NCBI RefSeq assembly: GCF_014267175.1
Contig: NZ_JACMTR010000002.1
Location: forward strand, 5,977,501 to 6,041,500
Direction: 5' to 3'
DNA from: Pseudonocardia sp. C8
GTDB lineage: Bacteria; Actinomycetota; Actinomycetes; Mycobacteriales; Pseudonocardiaceae
DNA: 64,000 nt
In this document: one piece after another, positions 7,915 through 57,755 of the stretch
Layout of the letters: every line of letters begins with the position of its first letter
Numbering within the stretch: position 1 is the first letter of the stretch
The notes under the pieces: model-generated
The model's input: the letters and a program-made list of their open reading frames with translations, nothing else
What the model was told of the DNA's origin: nothing
The model's database searches: none
Made by a program: the position numbers and the translations under genes

Positions 7915-8555
7915 CCGCCGCGGTCCCGCGCCCGGCCCCGGCCGAGCCGGCCCGGGTGCTGGTGGTCGACGACCACCCGGTCGTCCGGGACGGGGTGGCG
8001 CTGCTGCTGCGTGACGAACCCGGCCTCAGCGTGGTGGGCTCGGCGGAGAACGGCCAGGCCGCACTGGCACTGGCCCCCGAGCTGCGGCCGGCCGTCGTGC
8101 TGCTCGACCTGCGGCTGCCCGACCTGTCCCCGACCGAGGTCACCGTCCGGCTGCGGCGCATCTGCCCGGAGGCGCGGATCGTGGTGTTCACCGCGCACGG
8201 CGACGGGCCGGCCGTGCAGGCCGTCCTGGACGCCGGCGCGCACGGCTGCCTGCTCAAGGACGCCGCCGCCACCGACCTGGCCGCCGCGCTGCGGCGGGTG
8301 CTGGCCGGCGAGCGGGTCGCCGACCCGCGGATCGCGCTGCACGGCCCGGCCCCGGCGGCCGCGGCCGGGCTGACCCGGCGCGAGATCGAGGTGATCCGGC
8401 TGGCCGCCCGGGGCCTGACCAACCCGGAGATCGCCGCGCGGACCGGCCTGGCGCGCAACACCGTCAAGACCTACCTGCAGTCGGCGCTGCACAAGCTGGG
8501 GGCGCGCAACCGGATCGAGGCGATCGTCCGGGCCGCCGAGCTCGCCCTGCTGTAA
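7911..8555 (+). CDS. LuxR/NarL-family response regulator
   Basis: 214 residues. The receiver domain has the acidic pair (VVDDHP), the phospho-acceptor Asp in VLLDLRLPD and the Lys in LLKDA. A C-terminal LuxR helix-turn-helix follows (LTRREIEVIRLAARGLTNPEIA). The GTG at 7911 overlaps the kinase stop by 4 nt. It is the cognate partner of the GAF kinase, probably binding DNA near this locus, for example in the 8556-8722 gap before the ABC operon. Confidence 0.92.
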   Translation: MTAAVPRPAPAEPARVLVVDDHPVVRDGVALLLRDEPGLSVVGSAENGQAALALAPELRPAVVLLDLRLPDLSPTEVTVRLRRICPEARIVVFTAHGDGPAVQAVLDAGAHGCLLKDAAATDLAAALRRVLAGERVADPRIALHGPAPAAAAGLTRREIEVIRLAARGLTNPEIAARTGLARNTVKTYLQSALHKLGARNRIEAIVRAAELALL

Positions 8556-8722
8556 CCGCACGGGCACGGAGGGTCCGCCGGTCCCGGCGGCTCGGTAACG
8601 GTGCGTTCACGAAACCCCCGCACCTCTCCACATGGAGGTACTCCGGCGGTGTGACCCATCCCACGATGTGCGCCTCGCATGCAGTCGTCGGGAGGGGAGC
8701 CACGACCCGTGGATGATCGAGG

Positions 8723-9535
8723 GTGCTGAACGTGCAGGGCCTGACCGTGCGGTACGGCCGCGCGGTGCAGGCGCTGAGCGACGTCGACCTGGAACTTCCC
8801 GACGACGGCGTCCTGGCCGTCCTGGGCGGGAACGGGGCCGGCAAGTCCACCCTGCTGCGGGCGATCTCCGGGACGCTGCGGCTGCACGGCGGCGCGGTGA
8901 CCGCCGGCGAGGTGCGGGTCGACGGCGACCGGATCGACGGACTCGACCCGGCGCTCGTGGTCCGTCGCGGGGTGGTCGCGGTGCCCGAGGGGCGCCAGGT
9001 GTTCGCCGGGATGACCGTGGAGGAGAACCTGCGGGCCGGCGGGCTGGGCACCCGGTCGTCGGCGGTGCGGGCGGCGGCCCGGGAGCGGATCCGGGAGCTG
9101 TTCCCGGTGCTGACCGAGCGGGCCCGCCAGCCCGCCGGCCTGCTCTCCGGCGGTGAGCAGCAGATGCTGGCCATCGGCCGGGCACTGATGTCGGGGCCGA
9201 GGCTGCTGCTGCTCGACGAGCCGTCGCTGGGCCTGGCCCCGCAGATGGTGGGGCGGATCGCGGCGATCATCCGGGAGATCCACGAGCAGGGCACCGCGGT
9301 GGTGCTGGTCGAGCAGAACGCGACCATGGCGCTCGGCGTCGCCGACCACGCCGTCGCCCTCGAGGTCGGCCGGGTCGCCCTGTCCGGCCCGGCCCGGGAG
9401 CTGGCCGAGAGCGACGAGGTGCAGCGGCTCTACCTGGGCGGGCACGCCGAGTCGGCCGAGCAGGCGGAGGTCGAGGGCCGGGCCGCGGCCGCGCACCGCG
9501 GCGCGGCCCCGACGCTGGCCCGGTGGTCCGGGTGA
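8723..9535 (+). CDS. livF: Branched-chain-type ABC transporter ATPase (LivF-like)
   Basis: 270 residues. Walker A GGNGAGKST (about 34-42), signature LSGGEQQ (about 140), Walker B LLLLDEPSLGLAPQ (about 163), and a C-terminal extension rich in Ala. The GTG at 8723 gives the family N-terminus (LNVQGLTVRYG), though only a weak AGG precedes it; no better in-frame start exists because upstream starts run into a stop. First gene of a five-gene operon in which every junction overlaps. LivF and LivG together power uptake of amino acids, amides, urea or similar small molecules; the substrate cannot be told from sequence. Confidence 0.92.
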   Translation: MLNVQGLTVRYGRAVQALSDVDLELPDDGVLAVLGGNGAGKSTLLRAISGTLRLHGGAVTAGEVRVDGDRIDGLDPALVVRRGVVAVPEGRQVFAGMTVEENLRAGGLGTRSSAVRAAARERIRELFPVLTERARQPAGLLSGGEQQMLAIGRALMSGPRLLLLDEPSLGLAPQMVGRIAAIIREIHEQGTAVVLVEQNATMALGVADHAVALEVGRVALSGPARELAESDEVQRLYLGGHAESAEQAEVEGRAAAAHRGAAPTLARWSG

Positions 9536-10347
9536 GCGCCCCGGAAACCGCGGCCCCGCGGACCGGGCGCGACGACGTCCCCGAGCTGCGGGTCGACGCG
9601 GTCAGCCTGCACTTCGGCGGCATCCGGGCGCTCGACGACGTGTCGTTCACCGTCGTGCCCGGCACCGTCCACGCGCTGATCGGCCCGAACGGGGCCGGGA
9701 AGTCCAGCTGCTTCAACGTGATCTGCGGGGTGTACCGGCCCACCGCGGGCCAGGTGCTCCTCGACGGGGAACCGATCACCGGCCTCCCGCCGCACAAGCT
9801 GGCCGGCAAGGGGATCGGCCGCTCGTTCCAGAACCTCGCGCTGTCCCCGCACTCGTCGGTGCTGGACAACGTGATGCTCGGCCGGCACGTCCTGACCCGG
9901 GGCGGGTTCCTCACCGGCGGGCTGCGCCTGCCCGGCCGGATCCGCGAGGAACGCCGGCACGCCGACCGGGTGGCCGACATCTGCACCTTCCTCGGCATCG
10001 GTCACGTTCTCCACCAGCCGGTCGGCGCGCTGCCCTACGGCGTGGCCAAGCTCGTCGACATCGCCCGCGCGCTGGCCGTCGAGCCCCGCGTGCTGCTCCT
10101 CGACGAACCGGCGGCCGGGCTCAACGCGGCCGAGACCGCCGAGATCGCCGTGACCATCGGCAACCTGCGCGACGCGCTGGGCATCTCGGTGCTGCTCGTC
10201 GAGCACGACATGGGCCTGGTCATGGGCATCGCCGACCGGGTCAGCGTCCTGGACTTCGGCCGGCTGATCGCCGACGACGTGCCGTCCGCGGTGCAGGACG
10301 ACCCCGAGGTCATCCGCGCGTACCTCGGCACGGGGGAGGAGTCCTAG
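9532..10347 (+). CDS. livG: Branched-chain-type ABC transporter ATPase (LivG-like)
   Basis: 271 residues from the GTG at 9532, which overlaps the livF stop (GTGA); an in-frame GTG at 9523 is possible. Walker A GPNGAGKSS (about 50-58) and Walker B LLLDEPAAGLN (about 188) are intact. The signature is LPYGVAK rather than LSGG, a normal LivG-type variant. The long helical insert FQNLALSPHSSVLDN, typical of LivG, is present. Partner of LivF in the same importer. Confidence 0.92.
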   Translation: MSAPETAAPRTGRDDVPELRVDAVSLHFGGIRALDDVSFTVVPGTVHALIGPNGAGKSSCFNVICGVYRPTAGQVLLDGEPITGLPPHKLAGKGIGRSFQNLALSPHSSVLDNVMLGRHVLTRGGFLTGGLRLPGRIREERRHADRVADICTFLGIGHVLHQPVGALPYGVAKLVDIARALAVEPRVLLLDEPAAGLNAAETAEIAVTIGNLRDALGISVLLVEHDMGLVMGIADRVSVLDFGRLIADDVPSAVQDDPEVIRAYLGTGEES

Positions 10348-40488: not shown

Positions 40489-41781
40489 TCAGGTCAGGAG
40501 GTCGTCCAGGTCGCCGTTGATCGAGTGCGCGACGACCGGCCGGACGGTCTCGAAGGTGCACTCCTTCGCGTTGCCCGGGGTGCAGGCGTCACCCAGGACG
40601 TGGTTGGTGATCCGGTCGATGTCGGCGTCGTCGCCGATGATCCTCGGCGCGTTCTCGTAGAACTTGGTCGGGCCCTTGCCCAGCCGGTTCTTCGAGTACG
40701 TGTCCTGCGTGACGTCGGCGAACTTCTCCGGGATGCCCACGTCGCGCAGCAGCCGGATGGAGGCCGCGAGCGCGGCGTCGGCGGCCTGCGGCTTGGTCAT
40801 GCCGTGGGTGTCGATGCCCATCGCCTCGGCGATGTCGGCGAACCGCTCGTAGCAGACCGGCATGTTGAACGCCCACACGCGCGGCAGCGCGATGGCGTTG
40901 TTCAGGCCGTGGTGGGTGTCGTAGAACGCCGACACCGCGTGCGAGATCGAGTGGATGATCCCGAGGCCGCCGGAGTTGAACGCCTGCGCGGCGATGTACT
41001 GCGCGTACATCATGCCCTCGCGGCCGGCCAGGTCCTGGCCGTTCCAGACCGCCTGGCGCAGGTGCTGCGCGGTCAGCTTGATCGCGTGCAGCGCGTTGCC
41101 CAGCGACGGCTGGAAGTTCAGCCGGGAGACGTAGGGCTCGGAGGCGTGGGCGAGCACGTCGAACCCGCACTGCGCGGTGTAGTCGACCGGGCAGTCGTAG
41201 TACAGGACCGGGTCGTCGATGGCCAGCGAGGTCACCGACGCGTCGTCGAACGCCACGTACTTGTGCGGGTTGTCCGGGTCGGTCGTGGTGTCGGTGATGA
41301 CGTAGGCCCACGAGGTCTCCGAGCCGGTGCCGGCCGTGGTGGAGACCGCGATGTGCGGCGGGTTCGCCGGGTTCTCGGACTTGTTGAAGCCCTCGAACTC
41401 GTTGACGTTGCGGCCGTCGTGGGCGACCGAGACGCGCGCACCCTTGCAGGCGTCGTGCGAGGACCCGCCGCCGATCGAGACGAACGAGTCGCAGTTGTTC
41501 TGCTGGTAGAGGCCCACAGCGTCCATGACGTTGTAGTCCTTGGGGTTCGACTCGACCTGGTCGTACACGACGACCTCGAGGCCGTGGTACTTCATCGACT
41601 CGACGATCTTGTGGACGACGTCCGTGCCCCGCAGGCCCGAGGTCATCACCAGGGTCTTCTTGAAGCCCATCTTCAGGGCCTCGGGGCCGATCAGCTCGTG
41701 CGAGCCGGGACCCATGAGTGCCCGGGGGAACGGGTGGAACTCCTTGATGGGGAACGGCTTGAGCAGCTCGTCTACCTGCAT
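40489..41781 (-). CDS. mno: NDMA-dependent methanol dehydrogenase (iron-containing ADH family)
   Basis: 430 residues, nearly the same as recalled Amycolatopsis methanolica/mycobacterial enzyme throughout: VDELLKPFPIKEFHPFPRALMGPG, SIGGGSSHDACKG, STTAGTGSETSW. The metal site is in IIHSISHAVSAFYDTHHGLNNA. A decameric nicotinoprotein that oxidises methanol to formaldehyde with tightly bound NAD; its in vivo electron acceptor path depends on mycofactocin. ATG at 41781 after AAAGGG. The MoxR and VWA genes follow on the same strand. Confidence 0.95.
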   Translation of the reverse strand: MQVDELLKPFPIKEFHPFPRALMGPGSHELIGPEALKMGFKKTLVMTSGLRGTDVVHKIVESMKYHGLEVVVYDQVESNPKDYNVMDAVGLYQQNNCDSFVSIGGGSSHDACKGARVSVAHDGRNVNEFEGFNKSENPANPPHIAVSTTAGTGSETSWAYVITDTTTDPDNPHKYVAFDDASVTSLAIDDPVLYYDCPVDYTAQCGFDVLAHASEPYVSRLNFQPSLGNALHAIKLTAQHLRQAVWNGQDLAGREGMMYAQYIAAQAFNSGGLGIIHSISHAVSAFYDTHHGLNNAIALPRVWAFNMPVCYERFADIAEAMGIDTHGMTKPQAADAALAASIRLLRDVGIPEKFADVTQDTYSKNRLGKGPTKFYENAPRIIGDDADIDRITNHVLGDACTPGNAKECTFETVRPVVAHSINGDLDDLLT

Positions 41782-46694: not shown

Positions 46695-46781
46695 ATGAGC
46701 GAGCACCAGACCGAGGACGCCCTGGTCGAGGAGACCCTCGTCGAGGAGGTCTCCATCGACGGCATGTGCGGTGTCTACTAA
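46695..46781 (+). CDS. mftA: Mycofactocin precursor peptide MftA
   Basis: 28 residues. Acidic leader (VEETLVEEVS) and the invariant core IDGMCGVY, whose C-terminal Val-Tyr becomes the cofactor. ATG at 46695 behind GGAGG. MftB carries it, MftC decarboxylates and cyclises the Val-Tyr end, and MftE cuts it off. mftB starts inside its last codons. Confidence 0.97.
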   Translation: MSEHQTEDALVEETLVEEVSIDGMCGVY

Positions 46782-47124
46782 GCCGGTCGACGCCGCGGTG
46801 CCGGGCAGCAGCCCGCAGGAGGCCGCGGGGTCGGTGTTCGACCCCGCGGCCCCGTACCGCGTCAGCGAGAGCGTCTCGCTGCGCCCGGAGCCGTTCGGCG
46901 CACTGGTGTACGACTTCGTGACCCGCAAGCTGTCGTTCCTCAAGACCCCGCAGCTCGTCGAGGTCGTCACGAGCCTCGAGCAACACCCCGACGCCCGGTC
47001 CGCGGTCGAGGCCGCGGGCGTCCCGGAGTCCCAGCGGGAGGCGTACCTGAAGGCGCTCGCCGGGCTGTTCGCGTCCCGGACCATCGTCGCCCGCCAGACC
47101 CCCGAGCCGTCCACCACACAGTGA
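46771..47124 (+). CDS. mftB: Mycofactocin biosynthesis chaperone MftB
   Basis: 117 residues. PqqD-like peptide-binding domain (AAPYRVSESVSLRPEPFGALVYDFVTRKLSFLKTPQLVEVV). Binds the MftA leader and presents it to MftC. GTG at 46771 overlaps mftA by 11 nt, so the two are translationally coupled. Confidence 0.95.
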   Translation: MSTKPVDAAVPGSSPQEAAGSVFDPAAPYRVSESVSLRPEPFGALVYDFVTRKLSFLKTPQLVEVVTSLEQHPDARSAVEAAGVPESQREAYLKALAGLFASRTIVARQTPEPSTTQ

Positions 47125-47125
47125 G

Positions 47126-48349
47126 GTGCCCGTGAAGCTGGTCGATCACTTCCAGTACGGCCTCAACTCGCCCATCTGCCTGACCTGGGAGCTCACCTAC
47201 GCGTGCAACCTCGCGTGCGTGCACTGCCTGTCCAGCTCCGGGCGTCGTGACCCGCGCGAGCTGACCACCGCCGAGGCCAAGGCGGTGATCGACGAGCTGC
47301 AGCGGATGCAGGTCTTCTACATCAACATCGGCGGTGGCGAGCCGACCGTGCGCCCGGACTTCTGGGAGCTGCTGGACTACGCCATCGCGCACGACGTCGG
47401 GGTCAAGTTCTCGACGAACGGCGTCAAGCTCGACAAGGCGCGGGCCGCGCAGCTGGCCGCGACCGACTACGTCGACATCCAGATCTCGATGGACGGCGCG
47501 ACGGCCGAGGTCAACGACCACGTCCGTGGGCCCGGGTCGTTCGACACCGCGATCACGGCACTGGAGAACCTGGCCGAGGCCGGGTTCGACCGGCCCAAGA
47601 TCTCGGTGGTGATGACCCGGGAGAACGTCGACCAGCTCGACGAGTTCAAGGCCATCGCCGACAAGTACGGCGCCCAGCTGCGGATCACCCGGCTGCGCCC
47701 GTCCGGGCGCGGCGCGGACGTCTGGGACGAGCTGCACCCGACCCAGGCCCAGCAGAAGCAGCTCTACGACTGGCTGGTCGAACGCTCGGCGGCAGCCGAC
47801 AACCCAGTGCTGACCGGGGACTCGTTCTTCCACCTGTCGGCCTACGGCGAGGCGCTGCCCGGGCTGAACCTGTGCGGGGCCGGCCGGGTGGTCTGCCTGA
47901 TCGACCCGGTGGGCGACGTCTACGCCTGCCCGTTCGCGATCCACGAGAACTTCCTGGCCGGCAACGTGCGCGACACCGGAGGGTTCGCCGAGGTGTGGGC
48001 GAACTCGGAGCTCTTCCGGGACCTGCGCTCGCCGCAGACCGGCGGGGCGTGCACGTCGTGCGCCCACTACGACGCCTGCCAGGGCGGCTGCATGGCGGCG
48101 AAGTTCTTCACCGGCCTGCCGCTGGACGGCCCGGACCCGGAATGCGTGCAGGGCTACGGCGAGCAGATGCTGGCCGCCCGCGACGCGGACACGGTGATCC
48201 CGAAATCCGACGTGGACCACTCCCGGTCGGCGCCGCGGAACTCCCGCACGCCGAAGCAGCCGACGATGCTGTCCCTGGCCCCGCCGCCGCGGCGGCCGGA
48301 CCGGGCGTGCGACGAGAACCCGCTGGCCGGGTTCAGCCCCGGGCACTGA
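47126..48349 (+). CDS. mftC: Mycofactocin radical SAM maturase MftC
   Basis: 407 residues. Radical-SAM cluster CNLACVHC (about 28-35), GGGEPTVRPDF, and a SPASM domain with auxiliary cluster cysteines (CGAGRVVC, CTSCAHYDACQGGCMAAK). Oxidatively decarboxylates the C-terminal Tyr of MftA and links it to Val. GTG at 47126, one nucleotide after mftB. Confidence 0.97.
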   Translation: MPVKLVDHFQYGLNSPICLTWELTYACNLACVHCLSSSGRRDPRELTTAEAKAVIDELQRMQVFYINIGGGEPTVRPDFWELLDYAIAHDVGVKFSTNGVKLDKARAAQLAATDYVDIQISMDGATAEVNDHVRGPGSFDTAITALENLAEAGFDRPKISVVMTRENVDQLDEFKAIADKYGAQLRITRLRPSGRGADVWDELHPTQAQQKQLYDWLVERSAAADNPVLTGDSFFHLSAYGEALPGLNLCGAGRVVCLIDPVGDVYACPFAIHENFLAGNVRDTGGFAEVWANSELFRDLRSPQTGGACTSCAHYDACQGGCMAAKFFTGLPLDGPDPECVQGYGEQMLAARDADTVIPKSDVDHSRSAPRNSRTPKQPTMLSLAPPPRRPDRACDENPLAGFSPGH

Positions 48350-51300
48350 CCGCCGGCCTGCTGACGGGGCCCGCCGTCCTGCGCGGCCGGCGGGCCCCGT
48401 CGCGGGTGCTGTTCGGCCCGCACGAGACGAACCTCGGCAACGCCCGCCGGGAGATCACCGCCGACCACGCGGCGTACTACGCGGCCCGCGCGGCCGGCGG
48501 GGCGGGGCTGATCGTGGTCGAGCCGGCGTCGGTGCACCCCTCCGACCACCCCTACGCCTACGCCCCCGCCGCGTCCGCGGCCGCGCCGGGATGGGTGGCC
48601 GTCGTCGAGGCGTGCCGGCCGTACGGGACCCTCGTGCTCGCCGGGCTCGCGCACGCCGGCGGGCAGGGGACGTCCGCGCACTCCGGGCACCCGCTGTGGG
48701 GGCCGTCCGCCGTCCCGGACGTGGTGACCCGCGAGACCCCGGTCGCGATGGGATCCGCCGAGATCGACGCCGTCGTCCGCGCCTTCGCCGCCGCCGCCCG
48801 GTCCGCCGTGGACTCCGGCGTGGACGGTGTGGAGATCTCCGCGGGGCAGCACTCGCTGCTCCGCCAGTTCTGCTCCGGGCTGACCAACCACCGCACCGAC
48901 GGCTACGGCCGCGACCGCGCGCGGCTCCTGCGCGAGGTCCTGGCCGCGGTCCGGGACGCGATCGGGCCGGCCCCGCTGCTGGCGCTGCGGCTGTGCGTCG
49001 ACGAGCTGGCGCCGTGGGCCGGCATCCGGTTCGGTGACGGCCTCGCACTGGCCCGGGAGGTCACCGGGGACGTCGACCTGCTCGTCCCGGTGGTCGGCAG
49101 CGGCCCGTCCGTCGGCGCGACCCGGCCGGACCTGCACACGCCCGAGGCGTTCCTGCGGGGGCGGTGCGCGGAGGTGCGCAGAGCTGTGGGAGGTGCGGCC
49201 CGGGTCGTGCTGGCCGGGAGCGTCGCATCGGTTTCGGTCGCGTCCGACGCCCTGACCTGCGGAGACGCTGATCTTGTCGAGATGACGAGAGCGCAGATCG
49301 CCGATCCGGGACTGGTCGCGCTCGCCCGCGCCGGGACGCCCGAGCGGATCCGGCCCTGCCTGCTCACGAACGCGCTCGCCGCGGCCCGGGATCCGCGCAA
49401 CCCCGTCGTCGGGGACGAGCTGGAGCCCCGGTCGGGGCACGAGCGCACCGAGCCGCCCGCAGGACCGCGCATGATCGACGATCGGGCACCGGAACCGGCC
49501 GGATCCGGCCGCCTTCCGTGCCCGATCGTCGATCACCCGGCGCCGCGGCCCGTCCTCGTCGTCGGGGGTGGGCCGGCCGGGCTGGAAGCGGCGTGGACCC
49601 TCGCCCTGCGCGGGCACCCGGTCACCGTGCACGAGCGCTCCGACCGGCTGGGCGGGCTGCTGCACGCTGCCGCGGTGCTGCCCGGCCGCGCTCGCCTCGC
49701 GTTGCCCGCAGCCTGGTGGGCGCGCGAGCTCGCCCGGCTCGGCGTCCACGTCGAGCTCTCCTCCGAGGTGGACGACGCCGGCGTCCGTGCCGCCGAGTCG
49801 CGCGGGGAGCTGGTGGTGCTCGCGACCGGGTCACGGCCCGGCCCGCACGGGTACGACGCCGACGTCCCCGTCCTCCCGGCGGCGGAGCTCGCCGGTGCCG
49901 TCGCGGGCGCGCTGCCCGGGCCCGGGCGCGTTCCGCGGAACGCGGCGGACTGCCCGTCGCGTGCGGTCCGGACGGTCCTCGGGGCGCGCGGTGTCCCGAT
50001 GGGCGCGCCGGTGCTGGTCCGGGACCCGCTCGGGGACTGGACCGGGCCGGGCGTCGCGGAGCTGCTGGCGTCGGCCGGGTACGCGGTCACCCTGTCCACG
50101 CCGGACGCCGTCGCCGGGCACCAGCTCGGGCGGTGCGGCGACATGGCACCGGCGAACGCCCGGCTGGAGCGCGCCGGCGTCGTCCGGGCCGTGTTCACCG
50201 AGGTCGGTGGGGTCGCCGGCGGGATCGCCGAGCTCGCCGACGTGCACACCGGTGCGGCGACGCGCGTGGCGTGCGCGGCCGTCGTCGACTGCGGGTCCCG
50301 GCTGCCCGAACGCACCCTCCCGGACGCGCCCGGCCGGTGGAGCGCCGGGGACCGGGTCGCCCCGAGGACGCTCGCCGAGGCCGTCCGGGAGGGCCGCCGC
50401 GTCGCGCTCGGGATCGCCACGGGCCGGGTCGCCGGGGTGGCCGGCGCACGGCCCGCTCCGCGGCCGAACCGTTCCGAGCCGGCCGCTCGGGGAAGCACTG
50501 CCGGCGCGACCGGTGCGCGGGCGGCGACCCCGGCCGGGCTCGGCGCCCCGCTGCGGCTCGGCCGGCGTGAGCTGCGGAACCGCATCGTCTTCACCGCGCA
50601 CCTCACCGGGTTCGCCGAGGGCGGCCTGCCCACTGCGCGGCACGCGGCCTACTACGCGGCCCGGGCTGCGGGCGGCGCCGGGCTGGTGATCACCGAGGAA
50701 CACGCCGTCCACCCGCACGACCGGCCGTACGAGCGGCTGATCCGCGGCCACGACCCGGCCGTGCTGCCGGGCTACCGCCTGCTCACCGAGGCGGTGCGCG
50801 GGCACGGCGCGGTCGTGCTCGCCCAGCTCAACCACAACGGTGCGCAGGGCTCCGGGATGTACTCGCGGGAGCCGGTCGTCGGGCCGTCGGCGCTGCCCGA
50901 CCCGATGTTCCGCGAGGTGCCGTCCGAACTGGACGCGGCCGGGATCGCGGAGATCGTCGCGGGGTTCGCCGACGTCGCGGCGCGATGCGTCGCGGGCGGG
51001 TTCGACGGCGTCGAGCTGCAGTGCTCGCACGCGTCCCTGCTGCGCCTGTTCCTCTCCCCGGCGACGAACCGGCGGACCGACGCGTGGGGTGGCGACCGCG
51101 CCCGCCGGGCCCGGATCGTGCTGGACGCCGTCGCGGCCGTGCGCGAGGCGATCGGGCCGGACCCGGTGCTGGGCCTGCGGATCGGTGCCGACGAGCGCGT
51201 CCCGGGCGGCATCACCCCCGGGGACGGCGCCGATCTGGCCCGCCGCCTCGCCGGGACCGGGATGGTCGACCACCTCACCACCTCGATCGGCGTCGCCACC

Positions 51301-52593
51301 TCGACGCTGCACCTCGTCGAGCCCTCCATGCACACGCCGGCCGGGTACGCCGGGCCGCTCGCCGCGACCCTGCGCCGCGCCGTTTGGGCCGCCGGTGCGG
51401 ACATCCCGGTGATCGGTGTCGGCCGCTTCACGACCCCGGACCAGGCGGCGGCCGCGCTGGAGCGCGCCGAGTGCGACCTGGTCGGCGTCACCCGCGGACA
51501 GATCGCGGATCCCGGGTTCGCGGCCAAGGCGCTGGTCGGGCGCCCGGTGCGCCGCTGTGTCGGGTGCAACCAGGACTGCATCGGGCGGGTGGGGATGAAC
51601 CTGCCCCTGGGGTGCGTGGTGAACCCCGAGGCGGGGCGCGAGCGGCTCGTGCTCGCGGGCCCGGCTGCGACCGCGGCGTCCGGCCCGGCCGCGACCGGTC
51701 CGCTGCTGCACGGGCGCGGCGCCACCGGCTCCGGCGGGCGCGGCGCCCGGCGGGTGCTCGTGGTCGGCGCCGGGCCGGCGGGGCTGTCCGCCGCCGCGTC
51801 GCTCGCCGGCCGGGGCCACCGGGTGCTGCTCGCCGAACGCGCCGAGGGACCCGGCGGGCGGCTCACCCTCGCCGCGGCCGCACCCGGCCGTGCGGAGCTG
51901 GGGAACGTGGTCGCCGACCTGGTGCGCGCGGCGGAGGAGGCAGGCGCCGAGGTCCGGTACGGGACCGGGGTGGACGCCGAGGTCGTCGCCGAGCACGGCC
52001 CGGACGCCGTCGTGCTCGCGACCGGGGCGGAGCCGGCCGTGCCGCACTGGGACCCGGACCGGCTGACGGTCCCGGCCGACGACGTCCTGGCCGGGGCCCG
52101 GCTCCCGGCCGGAGCGGTGCTCGTCGTCGACGGGACCGGGTTCCACGAGGCGACCTCGACCGCCGAGCTGCTCGCGGCCCGGGGGCACGACGTCGAGATC
52201 GTCACGGCGGCACTCGTCGTCGGCCAGGATCTCGGGCTCACCCTGGACCGCGAGGGCTTCCGGCGGCGCGCGCACGCCGCCGGGATCCGCTGCCGCACCG
52301 ACCGGGTGGTGCTGGGGGTGGCGCGTACCGGTGAGCAGAGCAGGACGGTCGAGCTCCTGCACCACCCGACCGGGCGCACCGAGCGCCGCGAGGTCGCCGC
52401 GGTCGTCACCGCCCTGCCCGCGGTGCCCCGCGTGCTGCAGTGCGCCGGGCGGTTCCGGTCCGACCCCGGCGGCGGTCCTCCCCGGCCGGGTGGGCCCCGT
52501 ACGGTCGTCCGGATCGGGGACGCCCTTGCCCCGCGCCGCGTCGACGCGGCGATCCGGGAGGGAGCAAGTGTCTTGACCTGTAGTCAAGTCTAG
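48307..52593 (+). CDS. Fused tandem FadH/OYE-family oxidoreductase of the mycofactocin locus
   Basis: One uninterrupted frame of about 1,428 residues made of two 2,4-dienoyl-CoA reductase-like modules. Module 1: OYE TIM barrel (about 30-370) and FAD/NAD domain with VVGGGPAGLEAAW (about 418). An Ala/Gly/Pro linker (about 710-745) follows. Module 2: OYE barrel with QLNHNGAQGSGMYSREPVVGPSALP, the 4Fe-4S set RRCVGCNQDCIGR...CVVNP, and VVGAGPAGLSAAA. Module 1 lacks the Fe-S cysteines (RPCLLTNALAAARDPRNP). In other mycofactocin loci two separate genes of this class (OYE 1 and 2) occur. Start uncertain: GTG 48307 overlaps mftC; the next GTG (48406) would trim the barrel. Confidence 0.85.
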   Translation: MRREPAGRVQPRALTAGLLTGPAVLRGRRAPSRVLFGPHETNLGNARREITADHAAYYAARAAGGAGLIVVEPASVHPSDHPYAYAPAASAAAPGWVAVVEACRPYGTLVLAGLAHAGGQGTSAHSGHPLWGPSAVPDVVTRETPVAMGSAEIDAVVRAFAAAARSAVDSGVDGVEISAGQHSLLRQFCSGLTNHRTDGYGRDRARLLREVLAAVRDAIGPAPLLALRLCVDELAPWAGIRFGDGLALAREVTGDVDLLVPVVGSGPSVGATRPDLHTPEAFLRGRCAEVRRAVGGAARVVLAGSVASVSVASDALTCGDADLVEMTRAQIADPGLVALARAGTPERIRPCLLTNALAAARDPRNPVVGDELEPRSGHERTEPPAGPRMIDDRAPEPAGSGRLPCPIVDHPAPRPVLVVGGGPAGLEAAWTLALRGHPVTVHERSDRLGGLLHAAAVLPGRARLALPAAWWARELARLGVHVELSSEVDDAGVRAAESRGELVVLATGSRPGPHGYDADVPVLPAAELAGAVAGALPGPGRVPRNAADCPSRAVRTVLGARGVPMGAPVLVRDPLGDWTGPGVAELLASAGYAVTLSTPDAVAGHQLGRCGDMAPANARLERAGVVRAVFTEVGGVAGGIAELADVHTGAATRVACAAVVDCGSRLPERTLPDAPGRWSAGDRVAPRTLAEAVREGRRVALGIATGRVAGVAGARPAPRPNRSEPAARGSTAGATGARAATPAGLGAPLRLGRRELRNRIVFTAHLTGFAEGGLPTARHAAYYAARAAGGAGLVITEEHAVHPHDRPYERLIRGHDPAVLPGYRLLTEAVRGHGAVVLAQLNHNGAQGSGMYSREPVVGPSALPDPMFREVPSELDAAGIAEIVAGFADVAARCVAGGFDGVELQCSHASLLRLFLSPATNRRTDAWGGDRARRARIVLDAVAAVREAIGPDPVLGLRIGADERVPGGITPGDGADLARRLAGTGMVDHLTTSIGVATSTLHLVEPSMHTPAGYAGPLAATLRRAVWAAGADIPVIGVGRFTTPDQAAAALERAECDLVGVTRGQIADPGFAAKALVGRPVRRCVGCNQDCIGRVGMNLPLGCVVNPEAGRERLVLAGPAATAASGPAATGPLLHGRGATGSGGRGARRVLVVGAGPAGLSAAASLAGRGHRVLLAERAEGPGGRLTLAAAAPGRAELGNVVADLVRAAEEAGAEVRYGTGVDAEVVAEHGPDAVVLATGAEPAVPHWDPDRLTVPADDVLAGARLPAGAVLVVDGTGFHEATSTAELLAARGHDVEIVTAALVVGQDLGLTLDREGFRRRAHAAGIRCRTDRVVLGVARTGEQSRTVELLHHPTGRTERREVAAVVTALPAVPRVLQCAGRFRSDPGGGPPRPGGPRTVVRIGDALAPRRVDAAIREGASVLTCSQV

Positions 52594-52610: not shown

Positions 52611-54128
52611 ATGCCGACCGAACCTCTCGCCGCCGCCGACCGTGCCGGGCCCCGCGCCTGGATCGGGCTGGCCGTGCTCGCCCTGCCCCTGCTCGTCCTC
52701 GCGCTCGACGTCAGCGTCCTCTACCTTGCGGCGCCGACGCTGGCCGCGGACCTGCAGCCGTCGGCCACCCAGCAGCTGTGGATCCTCGACATCTACGGCT
52801 TCCTGATCGCCGGGTTCCTCATCACCATGGGTGGCCTGGGCGATCGCATCGGGCGCCGCCGGCTGTTGCTGGCCGGGGCGGCGGCGTTCGCGCTCGCCTC
52901 GGTCGTCGCTGCGTTCGCGCCCACCGCCGAGCTGCTGATCGCGGCCCGCGCGCTGCTCGGCGTCGCGGGAGCGACCCTCATGCCCTCGACGCTCGGGCTG
53001 ATCTCGACGATGTTCCCCGACCCGGGCCGGCGCCGGTTCGCGGTCGCGGTGTGGATGACGACCTTCTCGGCCGGTATCGCGCTCGGCCCGCTGATCGGTG
53101 GCGTCGTGCTCGACGCGTTCTGGTGGGGCGCGGTGTTCCTGCTCGGTGTCCCGCCGATGCTGCTGCTCCTGGCGGTGGGCCGGTGGTTGCTGCCGGAGGA
53201 GCGCGGGACCGGGACCGGCCGTCCGGACATGCCGAGCGTGGGGCTCTCGCTCGCGACGATGCTGCCGCTGGTCCTCGCGGTGAAGGACCTCGCCGCGTAC
53301 GGCCCCGACCTGCAGGTACTGATCGCTGCGCTGGTCGGCATGCTGGCAGGTGTCCTGTTCGTGCGGCGGCAGCGGCGGCTCCCGGACCCGTTGCTGGACA
53401 TCGCGTTGTTCACCCGCCCGGCGTTCACCGCCGCCGTGGCGGTGCTCCTGATCGGACTGGTCGCGGTGAACGGGCTGTTCTTCGTCCTGCCGCAGTACCT
53501 GCAGCTGGTGGAGGGCACCTCGGCGCTGGTCGCCGGCGTCTGGATGCTGCCGCTCGCCGGGGTCAACGTGGCCGGCTCGTTGCTCACGCCCGCGCTCACC
53601 CGGCGGTTCAGCGTGTCGGCGGTGGTCGCGGCCTCCGCCGGGACGGCCGCGCTCGGTGCGCTGCTGGTCGGGCTGACCGGTACCGGCTCCGGCCCGGTCG
53701 CGCTGGTCGCGCTGATGTGCGGCACGGTGCTCGGGCTGAGCCCCATCGGCGTGCTGGCCACCGACCTGGTGATCGGGTCGGTGCCGACCGCACGGGCCGG
53801 GTCGGCGGCGTCGATCTCGGAGACCGCCGGGGAGCTGGGGGTGGCGCTGGGCGTCGCCGTCACCGGGAGCGTGCTGACCGCCGTCTACACCGGACGGCTG
53901 GTGGTCCCGCCCGGGGTACCGGCCGTGGCCGCCGCCCGGTCCGGGGAGAGCCTGGCCGGTGCGGTGACCGCGGCCGGGGAGCTCCCCGGCGATCTCGCCG
54001 GAGCGCTCCTCTCGTCGGCCCGGGAGGCGTTCGGCGCCGGGCTCTCCGCGGTCGGCCTGCTCGGGGCGGGCCTGCTGCTGGGTGCGGTCGCGCTGGCACT
54101 GACCGCGCTGCGCCGGACCGGTGCGTGA
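52611..54128 (+). CDS. MFS drug-resistance-type transporter (DHA2, 14 helices)
   Basis: 505 residues, about 14 membrane helices. DHA2 signatures LDVSVLYLAAPTLAADLQPS, the GDRIGRRRLL loop, and SPIGVLATDLVIGSVP in the second half. ATG at 52611. Stop overlaps mftE by 4 nt (GTGA), so it is in the mycofactocin transcription unit, perhaps exporting a product or toxic intermediate. The substrate is unknown. Confidence 0.9.
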   Translation: MPTEPLAAADRAGPRAWIGLAVLALPLLVLALDVSVLYLAAPTLAADLQPSATQQLWILDIYGFLIAGFLITMGGLGDRIGRRRLLLAGAAAFALASVVAAFAPTAELLIAARALLGVAGATLMPSTLGLISTMFPDPGRRRFAVAVWMTTFSAGIALGPLIGGVVLDAFWWGAVFLLGVPPMLLLLAVGRWLLPEERGTGTGRPDMPSVGLSLATMLPLVLAVKDLAAYGPDLQVLIAALVGMLAGVLFVRRQRRLPDPLLDIALFTRPAFTAAVAVLLIGLVAVNGLFFVLPQYLQLVEGTSALVAGVWMLPLAGVNVAGSLLTPALTRRFSVSAVVAASAGTAALGALLVGLTGTGSGPVALVALMCGTVLGLSPIGVLATDLVIGSVPTARAGSAASISETAGELGVALGVAVTGSVLTAVYTGRLVVPPGVPAVAAARSGESLAGAVTAAGELPGDLAGALLSSAREAFGAGLSAVGLLGAGLLLGAVALALTALRRTGA

Positions 54129-54862
54129 CCGGGCAGGCTGTACCCGTGCTGCTCGCGGATCTGACGTGGACGGACCTCGTGGACCGGCCGTGCACCCTGC
54201 TGGTCCCGGTCGGCTCGACCGAGCAGCACGGACCGCACCTGCCGCTGGGCACCGACACCGCCGTCGCGTCCGCGGTCGGGACGGCCCTGCAGGCGGGCGA
54301 CCCGGCACTGGTGCTGGCCCCGGCGCTGGCCTACGGCGCGGCCGGGGAGCACGAGGGGTTCCCGGGGACGGTCTCCATCGGGGAGGAGGCGCTGCGCACC
54401 GTGCTGGTCGAGTACGGCCGGTCGGCCTGCCGGTGGGCCACACGGCTGGTGCTGCTCAACGGGCACGGCGGCAACGTGGCGGCACTGACCGCGGCCGTGA
54501 CCCGGCTGCGCGGGGAGGGGCGCGACGCCGCCTGGCTTCCGTGCGTGGCCAGGGTCCCGGGGGTTCCGCTGGACGCGCACGCCGGGCGCTACGAGACGTC
54601 GCTGCTGGCGCACCTGGACCCGGACCGGGTCCGCACCGACCGGGCGGTCGCCGGCGACACCCGGCCGCTGCGCGAGGTGATCGACGCGTTGCAGGCGCGC
54701 GGTGTCGCGGCCGTCAGCCCGAACGGCGTGCTGGGGGACCCGGCCGGGGCGTCCGCCGGGGAGGGTCGGGAGCTGCTGACGGCGATCGTCGCGGCCGCGC
54801 GCGCGGCGATCGCCGTCTGGGAGCCCGACCCGGGCACCGGGCGGCTCCGGGTCCCCCGGTGA
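54125..54862 (+). CDS. mftE: Mycofactocin precursor peptidase MftE (creatininase family)
   Basis: 245 residues. Creatininase-fold metal motifs VPVGSTEQHGPHLPLGTDT, EHEGFPGTVSIG and LLNGHGGNVAAL. Releases the modified Val-Tyr dipeptide from MftA. GTG at 54125 overlaps the MFS stop. Normally mftD lies between mftC and mftE; here it does not. Confidence 0.95.
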   Translation: MTGQAVPVLLADLTWTDLVDRPCTLLVPVGSTEQHGPHLPLGTDTAVASAVGTALQAGDPALVLAPALAYGAAGEHEGFPGTVSIGEEALRTVLVEYGRSACRWATRLVLLNGHGGNVAALTAAVTRLRGEGRDAAWLPCVARVPGVPLDAHAGRYETSLLAHLDPDRVRTDRAVAGDTRPLREVIDALQARGVAAVSPNGVLGDPAGASAGEGRELLTAIVAAARAAIAVWEPDPGTGRLRVPR

Positions 54863-55997: not shown

Positions 55998-56087
55998 GCG
56001 ACGAGTGTGCGGGGGAGGGAGGTGTTGCGCGATCGCCGGCGCATCCGGGTGTCGACCCGGGAGCGGCCGGGATGGAAGGCTCGCCCG

Positions 56088-57755
56088 GTGACCGCTGCCG
56101 ACACCCTCCCCGACGGCCCCGAGCCCCCCGACGCTCCCGGGCCCCGCGGCGGATCCGGCCCCGCGGCCCCGGCGACCGGGGAACACCGAGCGGACACGGG
56201 CCCCGCGGACCGGCGGCTCCCCGACGGGTTCCGGATCGTGCTGGACCGCCGCGCCCGCCGGATCGACGGGGGCGCTGCCCTGCTCGGCGGGGCTCCGCCG
56301 CGGCTGGTCCACCTGTCCGCGACGGCCAGGGCCCTGCTGCCCGCACCGGGCGCGCCGCTGGTCGTCGAGGGGCCCGTGCACCGGGCGCTCGCCCGGACCC
56401 TGCTCGATGCCGGGCTGGCCCACCCGGTCCCGGCGCCCGCCGACGCTGCCCACCCGGCCCCGGCGCCCGCCGACGCTGCCCACCCGGTCCCGGGAGGCCC
56501 CGCTGCGGCCGGCCCGCACGCGGGGACCCCCGCCGCGGTCCGGCCGTGCGAGGTGACGGTCGTCGTCCCGGTGAAGGACCGCCCGCTCGACCGGCTGCTC
56601 GCCGCGCTGGGGCCGGTCGGGAACGGTCCGGACCAGCCGGGCGGCCTCGTCGTCGTCGACGACGGGTCGGCGGACCCGGAGCCGCTGCGCCGCACCGTCG
56701 GGGCCGCCGGGGGCACCGTCCTGCGGCACGACCGCCCGCAGGGGCCCGCCGCGGCCCGCAACGCCGGGCTCGCCGCGGCCCGCACGCCGTACGTGGTGTT
56801 CCTCGACTCCGACGTCGTCCCCGAGCCGGGCTGGCTGGAGCCGCTGCTCGGGCACCTGGCCGACCCGGCCGTCGGGCTCGTCGCCCCGCGGATCGTCGCG
56901 CTGGACCCCGAGACGGGGGCCGGGCTCCGCGGGGTGGTCGGACGCTACGAGGCGGTCCGGTCCTCGCTGGACCTCGGTCCGGAGCCGGCCCTGATCGTCC
57001 CGCGGTCCCGGGTCGCCTACGTGCCGAGTGCCGCGATGCTGGTGCGGGTGACGGCGGTGGCCGGGGCGGGCGGCGCGTTCGACCCCGCCCTGCACGTCGC
57101 CGAGGACGTCGACCTGGTCCTGCGGATGCATGCCGCCGGATGGGCGATGCGGTTCGAGCCGACCGCGCGGGTCGCCCACGACCACCGCACCCGGCCAGCC
57201 GAGTGGTTGCGCCGCAAGGCCTTCTACGGCACGGGTGCGGCACCGCTGGCGCTGCGGCACCCGGGCGCGGTGCCGCCGATGGTGCTGTCGCCGTGGACCG
57301 CCGCGGTCTGCCTGCTCCTGCTCGTCCAGCGCCGCGGCACGACGGCCGCCGCCGCGACGGTCACCGCCGTGGCGACGGAACGGCTGTCCCGCAAGCTGAC
57401 CCGCCTCCAGCATCCCCGGCGTAGCGCCGCGCGGCTCACCCTGCTCGGCCTGTCCGGGGCGCTGTGGCAGACCGCCTCGGCACTGACCCGGCACTTCTGG
57501 CCGGTCGCGGCGGTTGCGTGCCCGTTCTCGTCGCGGGCCCGGCGCGCGGTCGTGGTGGCCGCGCTCGCCGAGGGAGTCGCGGACTGGTGGCTGCATCGCG
57601 ACCACGATCGGCGGGTGCGGGTTCCGGCGGTCGCCCACCTGGTCGCGCACCGATTGGACGATCTGGCCTACGGCGCCGGGTTGTGGTGGGGCGCCTGGCG
57701 GCACCGCACGACGGCCCCGCTCCGCCCGGGCGGGCCTGGCCCGCGGTCGCGATGA
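56088..57755 (+). CDS. mftF: Mycofactocin glycosyltransferase MftF
   Basis: 555 residues. N-terminal small domain resembling PqqD (about 44-120), a repetitive Ala/Pro linker, then a GT2 domain (about 152-380) with VTVVVPVKDRP, VVDDGSADP, FLDSDVVPEPGWL and EDVDLVLRMHAAGW. The C-terminal region is membrane-associated with LSPWTAAVCLLLLV and ends in a basic tail. Adds glucose units to premycofactocinol. GTG at 56088 after GGAAGG. Confidence 0.93.
   Translation: MTAADTLPDGPEPPDAPGPRGGSGPAAPATGEHRADTGPADRRLPDGFRIVLDRRARRIDGGAALLGGAPPRLVHLSATARALLPAPGAPLVVEGPVHRALARTLLDAGLAHPVPAPADAAHPAPAPADAAHPVPGGPAAAGPHAGTPAAVRPCEVTVVVPVKDRPLDRLLAALGPVGNGPDQPGGLVVVDDGSADPEPLRRTVGAAGGTVLRHDRPQGPAAARNAGLAAARTPYVVFLDSDVVPEPGWLEPLLGHLADPAVGLVAPRIVALDPETGAGLRGVVGRYEAVRSSLDLGPEPALIVPRSRVAYVPSAAMLVRVTAVAGAGGAFDPALHVAEDVDLVLRMHAAGWAMRFEPTARVAHDHRTRPAEWLRRKAFYGTGAAPLALRHPGAVPPMVLSPWTAAVCLLLLVQRRGTTAAAATVTAVATERLSRKLTRLQHPRRSAARLTLLGLSGALWQTASALTRHFWPVAAVACPFSSRARRAVVVAALAEGVADWWLHRDHDRRVRVPAVAHLVAHRLDDLAYGAGLWWGAWRHRTTAPLRPGGPGPRSR
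56421..56493 (+). repeat. 30-bp tandem repeat in mftF linker
   Basis: Unit at 56421-56450 repeated at 56451-56480 (one mismatch) plus a 13-nt remnant, encoding HPVPAPADAA. Lies between the small N-domain and the GT2 domain, so it lengthens the linker. Confidence 0.85.

Follow-up and report, generated by a model that had tools for sequence, protein, structure and literature searches.

Two mycofactocin-locus oxidoreductases, mycofact_OYE_1 and mycofact_OYE_2, are encoded as one protein in the mycofactocin locus of a soil actinobacterium. The fusion recurs in other genomes, both halves are conserved, and the full set of cluster cysteines is found in the C-terminal half only. As the N-terminal half (half 1) has lost most of its iron-sulfur site and the C-terminal half (half 2) retains it, the protein has the look of a functional enzyme joined to a degenerate one. 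The best explanation, to which we assign a probability of about 0.4, is a covalently tied OYE1/OYE2 flavoenzyme with a live C-terminal half and a cluster-free N-terminal partner.

A single open frame encodes both modules

The window, the whole stretch of 64,000 nucleotides analysed, carries the fused gene on the forward strand, adjoined by mftA, mftB, mftC, mftE and mftF, all in the same orientation. The precursor gene mftA (46695..46781; 28 aa, ending IDGMCGVY) matched Pfam MftA and TIGR03969 (52.8 bits, cut-off 25), and is followed by the chaperone gene mftB (46771..47124; TIGR03967, 108.2 bits, cut-off 33) and the radical SAM maturase gene mftC (47126..48349; TIGR03962, 643.7 bits, cut-off 265). 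Downstream of the fusion are an MFS transporter gene (52611..54128), for which the NCBIfam matches listed were all under cut-off, mftE (54143..54862; TIGR03964, 317.2 bits, cut-off 172) and the glycosyltransferase gene mftF (56052..57755; TIGR03965, 454.2 bits, cut-off 280), the 5' coordinates of the last two being provisional.

Translation of 48307-52593 (+) gave 1428 residues with a single, terminal stop, and none was found between the modules (about 50,440-50,560). The fused gene was placed at 48346..52593 (+) with an uncertain start, CTG 48346 or GTG 48307. The latter is doubtful because it falls within mftC (stop 48347-48349), and the next in-frame ATG, GTG or TTG downstream, GTG 48406, already falls within the conserved domain; CTG 48346, the alternative, overlaps the mftC stop.

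The N-terminal module, comprising a barrel and a Rossmann-type domain, lies at 48361..50403 (+; TIGR03996, residues 3-683 counted from 48355), and half 1 (48355-50475) scored 640.1 bits, above the curated cut-off of 627.9. The C-terminal module lies at 50539..52572 (+; TIGR03997, residues 729-1406 of the chain). Half 2 (50476-52593) matched this model at 762.6 bits when searched alone, slightly below the curated cut-off of 793.15, and the whole chain scored 1189.4 bits summed over two stretches. The profile search of both halves called for by the sequence-only reading thus put half 1 above its threshold and half 2, taken alone, just short of its own. Each of the two models matched two stretches of the whole chain, as did Pfam Oxidored_FMN, and both halves preserve the Rossmann-type motif. 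The halves cover most of the NCBIfam FadH/OYE 1 and 2 models and share their locus and order; they differ from those systems in forming one chain rather than two, and in the absence of three of the four cluster cysteines from half 1.

Between the two model matches is a low-complexity linker of about 45 aa with abundant Ala, Gly, Pro and Arg and no stop (50404..50538, +). An internal restart ahead of OYE2 is possible at GTG 50437, the sole in-frame ATG, GTG or TTG found in the ~60 codons preceding the OYE2 module, but inspection of the sequence before this codon revealed no Shine-Dalgarno-like motif. The earlier description of a true fusion of mycofactocin OYE 1 and OYE 2 through an Ala/Gly/Pro linker is thus borne out by profile matches in one open frame, and the 1:1 stoichiometry that it foresaw follows from the presence of both halves in a single chain.

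Distribution and origin of the fusion

Across 62 genomes of the genus, the analysis covered 43 loci in which both halves are present. Another 19 genomes fell outside the count: G012 and G023 (no OYE pair), G009 (pair on two contigs), G049 (pair on a 3.4-kb contig), G016 (an apparent near copy of G015), G028 and G045 (partial matches), and the rest without OYE1 over cut-off. The halves were two ORFs in 29 of the 43 loci, in agreement with the prior expectation of neighbouring genes, and one-frame fusions in 13, among them L117, counted as fused though its OYE2 match ends early. In the last locus (L121) an IS110 transposase gene lies between the halves, both of which are still open. The survey of relatives also detected a fusion in a genome of another family (G102), with an ATG start. 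The fusion is therefore real, as had been claimed, but less of a singular case than had been implied, since two groups of the genus, one of them the clade of the window, and this other-family genome all have it. A sequencing or assembly artefact was ruled out by this recurrence in independent assemblies.

Trees placed the two fused genus groups apart. Two independent fusions within the genus were considered and not retained, as a single origin survived the AU test (p 0.097 for OYE2, 0.40 for OYE1 and 0.41 for the joined alignment). The OYE2 tree leaves out L103, the AU tests L103 and L125, and the OYE1 tree the repeat loci L063, L071-L074, L076, L081, L085 and L086, the near-identical Thermogemmatispora loci L088 and L091, and L089, L090 and L092. 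We claim two putative origins, one in the genus and one in G102, and no more.

Loss of the cluster site and constraint on both halves

Alignment to 1ps9 and to other OYE1 rows located the degenerate [4Fe-4S] site of module 1, CLLTNALAAARDPRNPVVGDE, at 49357..49419 (+), where the four cluster positions are C, T, A and D, so that one of four cysteines is left. Cysteines 2-4 were missing in 43/43 genus OYE1 rows; OYE1 rows from outside the genus had all four in 32/36 and three in 4/36. This loss was overlooked in the sequence-only reading, and the four-cysteine motif is no stated criterion of the TIGR03996 model. In module 2, alignment to the 1ps9 cluster region and motif scans found an intact CVGCNQDC...C motif (51556..51615, +) of the form CxxCNQxC...C, which is intact in 42 of the 43 genus loci. 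In 2,4-dienoyl-CoA reductase electrons run along an FAD/4Fe-4S/FMN chain; without cysteines 2-4 this chain cannot run in half 1 as known. The suggested electron transfer between modules was accordingly not upheld, and no computed result brings the cofactors of the two halves close together.

Purifying selection acts on both halves: comparison of the window with L111 (P. parietis) gave dN/dS values of 0.26 and 0.24 for halves 1 and 2, that with L099 gave 0.28 and 0.28, and the L114-L096 pair gave 0.37 and 0.29. Mean identity to the window was 56.8% for half 1 vs 61.3% for half 2, the latter being higher in 38/42 comparisons. The DELAPWAGI and VEMTRAQIADP motifs of half 1 are kept in most genus rows. 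The consensus of each OYE1 group has Ser where DCR has an Arg that we take to contact the FMN phosphate. At the position of the DCR Gln, presumably another contact of FMN, the genus OYE1 groups have Gly or Ser, and the remaining groups show no majority residue. The OYE1 barrel of the second fused group also has additional gaps.

Solved relatives

The best solved relative of both halves was E. coli 2,4-dienoyl-CoA reductase FadH (PDB 1ps9). The barrel and Rossmann-type domain of both halves align with it, as does the cluster motif of half 2; FadH, however, has one module per chain, half 1 lacks the cluster, and CoA-ester activity of the halves is hypothetical. Further relatives include BaiCD and bilirubin reductase. 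Half 2 also matched the histamine and trimethylamine dehydrogenase (TMADH) chains (PDB 3k30, 1djn) at E 1e-45 or better, and belongs to the same superfamily. These dehydrogenases are homodimers with one cluster per subunit, whereas the fusion joins two unlike subunit types in one chain. An amine-dehydrogenase reading is weakened by the top solved match of half 2 being a reductase rather than an amine dehydrogenase. A related enzyme, Pno, is described as containing one FMN and one [4Fe4S], and its gene cluster as including etfAB and an ETF-ubiquinone oxidoreductase gene (PMC5500553).

Association with ETF genes, mftD and MftG

Two Streptomyces plasmid records are annotated in the order OYE1-OYE2-mft_etfA-FixC-like-FixX-like-mft_etfB; a third lists no OYE2 gene and labels OYE1 only as 'FAD-dependent oxidoreductase'. 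The same OYE1-OYE2-ETF/Fix arrangement was found in G003 of the genus (L094), the one locus of the 43 with ETF/Fix genes within the stretch covered per locus. Across the order, mft_etfA was over cut-off in 10/298 genomes, with the OYE pair genes adjoining in each. An mftD over cut-off was missing in 8/10 of these and present in 27/27 order genomes that have OYE1 but not mft_etfA above cut-off (Fisher p 1.2e-6). G185, whose OYE1 match comes in two pieces below cut-off, was grouped with the mft_etfA genomes for these counts, and G326 was omitted (OYE1 498 bits, under cut-off; OYE2 adjoining, mftD elsewhere). All eight mftD-less genomes come from a single family, and the association may thus reflect just one event; seven are 75-92% complete and G070 is 100% complete. 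Within family f10 the gene order is B-C-D-E-SDR-F in G136 and (B-)C-OYE1-OYE2-ETF/Fix-E-SDR-F in G070, G114, G122 and G164; the OYE pair of these latter genomes occupies the mftD slot, and they have no mftD above cut-off. In G073 a weak partial ETF-alpha match (79 bits) adjoins OYE2.

MftD, the premycofactocin synthase (TIGR03966), shares this operon slot with the pair but is of another protein family, and is a homologue of the lactate dehydrogenase LldD2 (PMC7491314). The 15 Pfam families matching the chain at E <=0.001 did not include PF01070, the superfamily to which TIGR03966 is assigned (PMC3023750), and TIGR03966 was not among the best 25 of the chain's 82 NCBIfam matches. In the window genome two mftD homologues, located elsewhere, score above cut-off (685 and 671 bits), and mft_etfA does not (best match E 2.9e-39); mftD was over cut-off in 57/62 genus genomes. 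MftG (TIGR03970), by which mycofactocin oxidation is tied to respiration (PMC11778925), resembles one proposed role of the OYE pair in this respiratory link but belongs to the GMC family. TIGR03970 was barely over cut-off in G000 (396.2 vs 387.45), and the Gordonia-type MftG model TIGR04542 was over cut-off in 0/62 genus genomes. In G309 and G348, mftC, mftD, OYE1, OYE2 and MftG stand in a single locus, which shows that the pair does not simply stand in for MftD or MftG. Replacement of MftG as a general rule was ruled out by this coexistence, and replacement of MftD as the whole story for the window by the same two genomes together with the homologues elsewhere in the window genome.

Proposed function and alternatives

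We propose that the fused protein acts as a TMADH-like dehydrogenase on a substrate of the mycofactocin pathway, each chain having one live redox path. OYE1 and OYE2 would normally form a two-subunit flavoenzyme, probably kin to 2,4-dienoyl-CoA reductase and trimethylamine/histamine dehydrogenase. The C-terminal half would provide the single live path, FMN to [4Fe-4S], oxidising mycofactocinol or, as in the MftD step, the amine AHDP, and an electron-transfer flavoprotein would relay the electrons to quinone. The cluster-free N-terminal half may be a conserved partner shaping the substrate or docking site, and the long variable linker could allow the halves to pair like a dimer. The evidence for ETF as acceptor is the gene neighbourhood in relatives, absent from the window genome; two mftD homologues and the lack of mft_etfA over cut-off in that genome count against an MftD role and a dedicated acceptor here. 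More broadly, and with considerable doubt, the OYE1/OYE2 pair, with the ETF module where present, could serve as an alternative premycofactocin synthase, coupled to respiration, that would remove the need for MftD; in Pseudonocardia one subunit of it would be cluster-free and, in some lineages, fused to the active one.

The C-terminal half might instead work in the 2,4-dienoyl-CoA-reductase direction, from NAD(P)H through FAD, [4Fe-4S] and FMN to a C=C or C=O bond (of mycofactocin or a xenobiotic, for example), again with the N-terminal half as partner. The E. coli enzyme as closest solved structure, the relationship to BaiCD and bilirubin reductase and the two Rossmann-type motifs argue for this, whereas the dedicated ETF alpha/beta and FixC/FixX-like neighbours, themselves absent at the window locus, fit quinone export better; such a direction is possible but tentative. 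It is decidedly improbable that the N-terminal half is a cluster-free flavoprotein of its own, acting on a second substrate, with the fusion channelling an intermediate between two active sites: selection on it is almost as strong as on half 2 and its two motifs persist, but the cluster ligands are lost, the presumed FMN-contact Arg and Gln are replaced, the second fused group shows further barrel gaps, and conservation is lower on average.

A neutral origin, by loss of a stop between translationally coupled genes whose products were already 1:1, would leave the function that of the separate pair. Split relatives have the same gene order, many with gaps of <=50 nt between the two matches, and the L121 halves have stayed open despite the transposase gene; against this, the frame is kept in all 13 fused genus loci across gaps of 21 to 327 nt, which suggests that the fused state is tolerated or favoured, and we consider a neutral fusion unlikely.

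In the literature collection searched, no published function was found for mycofactocin-locus OYE proteins, the paper retrieved describing the gene as one of unknown function, and no paper combined 'mycofactocin' with 'electron transfer flavoprotein'. Their fusion singles out OYE1 and OYE2 as partners, the cluster loss points to which half is likely the redox engine, and the mftD slot exchange offers a direct handle for testing the role of the pair. The favoured reading of a live half tied to a cluster-free one would, if true, provide an example of a two-subunit flavoenzyme becoming a single chain with a degenerate half.

A 64-bp palindrome of two 32-nt arms, 88% complementary, was also observed at 49472..49535, inside the open frame and between the module 1 domains. 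Its arm has 10 matches in the genome at <=1 mismatch, two of which are the palindrome itself.

The fused gene and its start

The window lies on contig 2 of the 6.24 Mb Pseudonocardia sp. C8 assembly (5977501-6041500), and its closest named relatives are Pseudonocardia parietis, P. ammonioxydans and P. endophytica. The mycofactocin genes are arranged in the order mftA (46695-46781), mftB, mftC (47126-48349), the fused frame, an MFS transporter gene (52611-54128; nearest models QepA/LfrA-type efflux, scores far below their cut-offs), mftE, a reverse phosphodiesterase-like gene and mftF. The fused frame is open to a stop at 52593 and matches the OYE1 model (TIGR03996) first and the OYE2 model (TIGR03997) second. 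The sequence-only reading had proposed a real fusion through an Ala/Gly/Pro linker, and both points were borne out; the gap between the two matches is ∼45 residues, stop-free and also rich in Arg, and a fused frame recurs in 13/43 genus loci. The ORF is a real, recurrent fusion of two known mycofactocin-locus families and, as an event, is ordinary; its greater interest lies in the cluster loss in one half and in the neighbourhood's hints at the role of the pair. An NDMA-dependent methanol dehydrogenase gene is located on the reverse strand at 40489-41781, ∼5 kb from mftA (TIGR04266, 672.7 bits, cut-off 625).

The start previously proposed, GTG 48307, falls within mftC and is uncertain. In the window ATG, GTG and TTG were all absent in frame between this codon and GTG 48406, which sits within the conserved domain. 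The 150 nt upstream of the same point contained no in-frame ATG, GTG or TTG in relatives' loci L097, L099, L111, L116 and L121, and a TTG was present in L096. In L115 and L116 this stretch contains a stop in frame and none of the three codons from there to the domain, which rules out a canonical start inside mftC for both. The missing canonical start may reflect a CTG start or unusual coupling; the simplest reading is a putative CTG start adjoining or overlapping the mftC stop.

Recurrence and origin of the fusion

The OYE_1 search covered 62 genus genomes, and 43 loci with both halves were examined. The halves formed one frame in 13, two ORFs in 29 and were separated by a transposase gene in one (L121, IS110-family RNA-guided, 8276-9583, opposite strand), which belongs to an otherwise fused clade. 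In both the OYE1 and OYE2 trees the window grouped with eight close rows, including L121, and P. endophytica, while four further fused rows were placed apart; a single origin within the genus was not rejected (AU p 0.10 to 0.41). A genome from another family of the order (G102) has its own fusion, in which OYE1 retains four/four cluster cysteines, therefore fusion and cluster loss are separable. In the fused frame of L117 the OYE2 part stops early, possibly by frameshift, and fused relatives L097 and L114 carry low-complexity, repeat-rich stretches within or between modules.

Loss of the iron-sulfur cluster from half 1

Compared with the E. coli 2,4-dienoyl-CoA reductase structure (1ps9), half 1 retains cluster cysteine 1, with positions 2-4 occupied by T, A and D. 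Cysteines 2, 3 and 4 were missing from OYE1 in all 43 genus rows, while the OYE2 motif was complete in 42 (exception L103). Outside the genus (n=36) all four cysteines were found in 32 OYE1 rows and three in the remaining four, of which L046, L056 and L062 belong to the same family as the window (f1) and L084 is Actinomycetospora. Other f1 rows (L047, L061 and L064) have all four, and this mixture within one family suggests that the cysteines may have been lost stepwise. The three Streptomyces records viewed have four/four in OYE1. In the second fused group the OYE1 barrel has additional gaps. FMN-contact roles assigned to residues are putative.

For three pairs dN/dS was 0.26-0.37 in half 1 and 0.24-0.29 in half 2; on these values half 1 is not a decaying remnant. 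Between the two domains of half 1 lies an in-frame 64-bp palindrome (49472-49535, ∼21 codons). Its arm has 10 genome matches at ≤1 mismatch, two of which are at this site, and several form palindromes; among the relatives' loci compared it was found only in L099, once, outside the fused gene.

ETF/Fix neighbours and the relation to mftD

In two Streptomyces plasmid records the annotated gene order is mftA-B-C-OYE1-OYE2-ETF alpha-FAD oxidoreductase-4Fe-4S protein-ETF beta; the third lists no OYE2 gene, the plasmid gene tables being incomplete. Proteins of locus L143 matched mft_etfA (383.5 bits) and mft_etfB (321.0 bits), with FixC and FixX matches below cut-off. mft_etfA scored above cut-off in 10/298 order genomes, with OYE matches adjoining in all ten. 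ETF/Fix genes lay inside the stretch compared in 1/43 genus loci (L094), and the profile search of the C8 genome gave no mft_etfA above cut-off. In Thermogemmatispora loci L075, L082, L088 and L091, OYE1-OYE2 and ETF/Fix-like genes lie next to each other, and neither mftB nor mftC was matched inside the region retrieved.

By counts read from match listings, mftD above cut-off was missing from 8/10 mft_etfA genomes, all in family f10 (G070, G114, G122, G164, G185, G198, G204 and G234), and was present somewhere in 27/27 order genomes with OYE1 but not mft_etfA above cut-off (Fisher p 1.2e-6, taking genomes as independent although they are not). Within f10 the slot of OYE1-OYE2-ETF/Fix in G070, G114, G122 and G164 is the mftD slot in G136. 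MftD catalyses the step from AHDP to premycofactocin, and mycofactocins are abolished in M. smegmatis when mftD is deleted (PMC7491314). The occurrence of OYE genes where mftD is lacking has already been published in part; a Saccharopolyspora study describes mftD-less clusters with a TIGR03997 gene and states that S. erythraea makes methylated mycofactocin (PMC11162802). The ETF link and the mftD slot exchange were not found in the portions consulted of these two papers, and a literature search returned no paper combining mycofactocin with electron transfer flavoprotein. The OYE pair is compatible with MftD, since mftD, the pair and MftG occur together in one locus in G309 and G348, mftD is above cut-off in 57/62 genus genomes (mftC in 59/62), and C8 has two mftD homologues outside the window locus.
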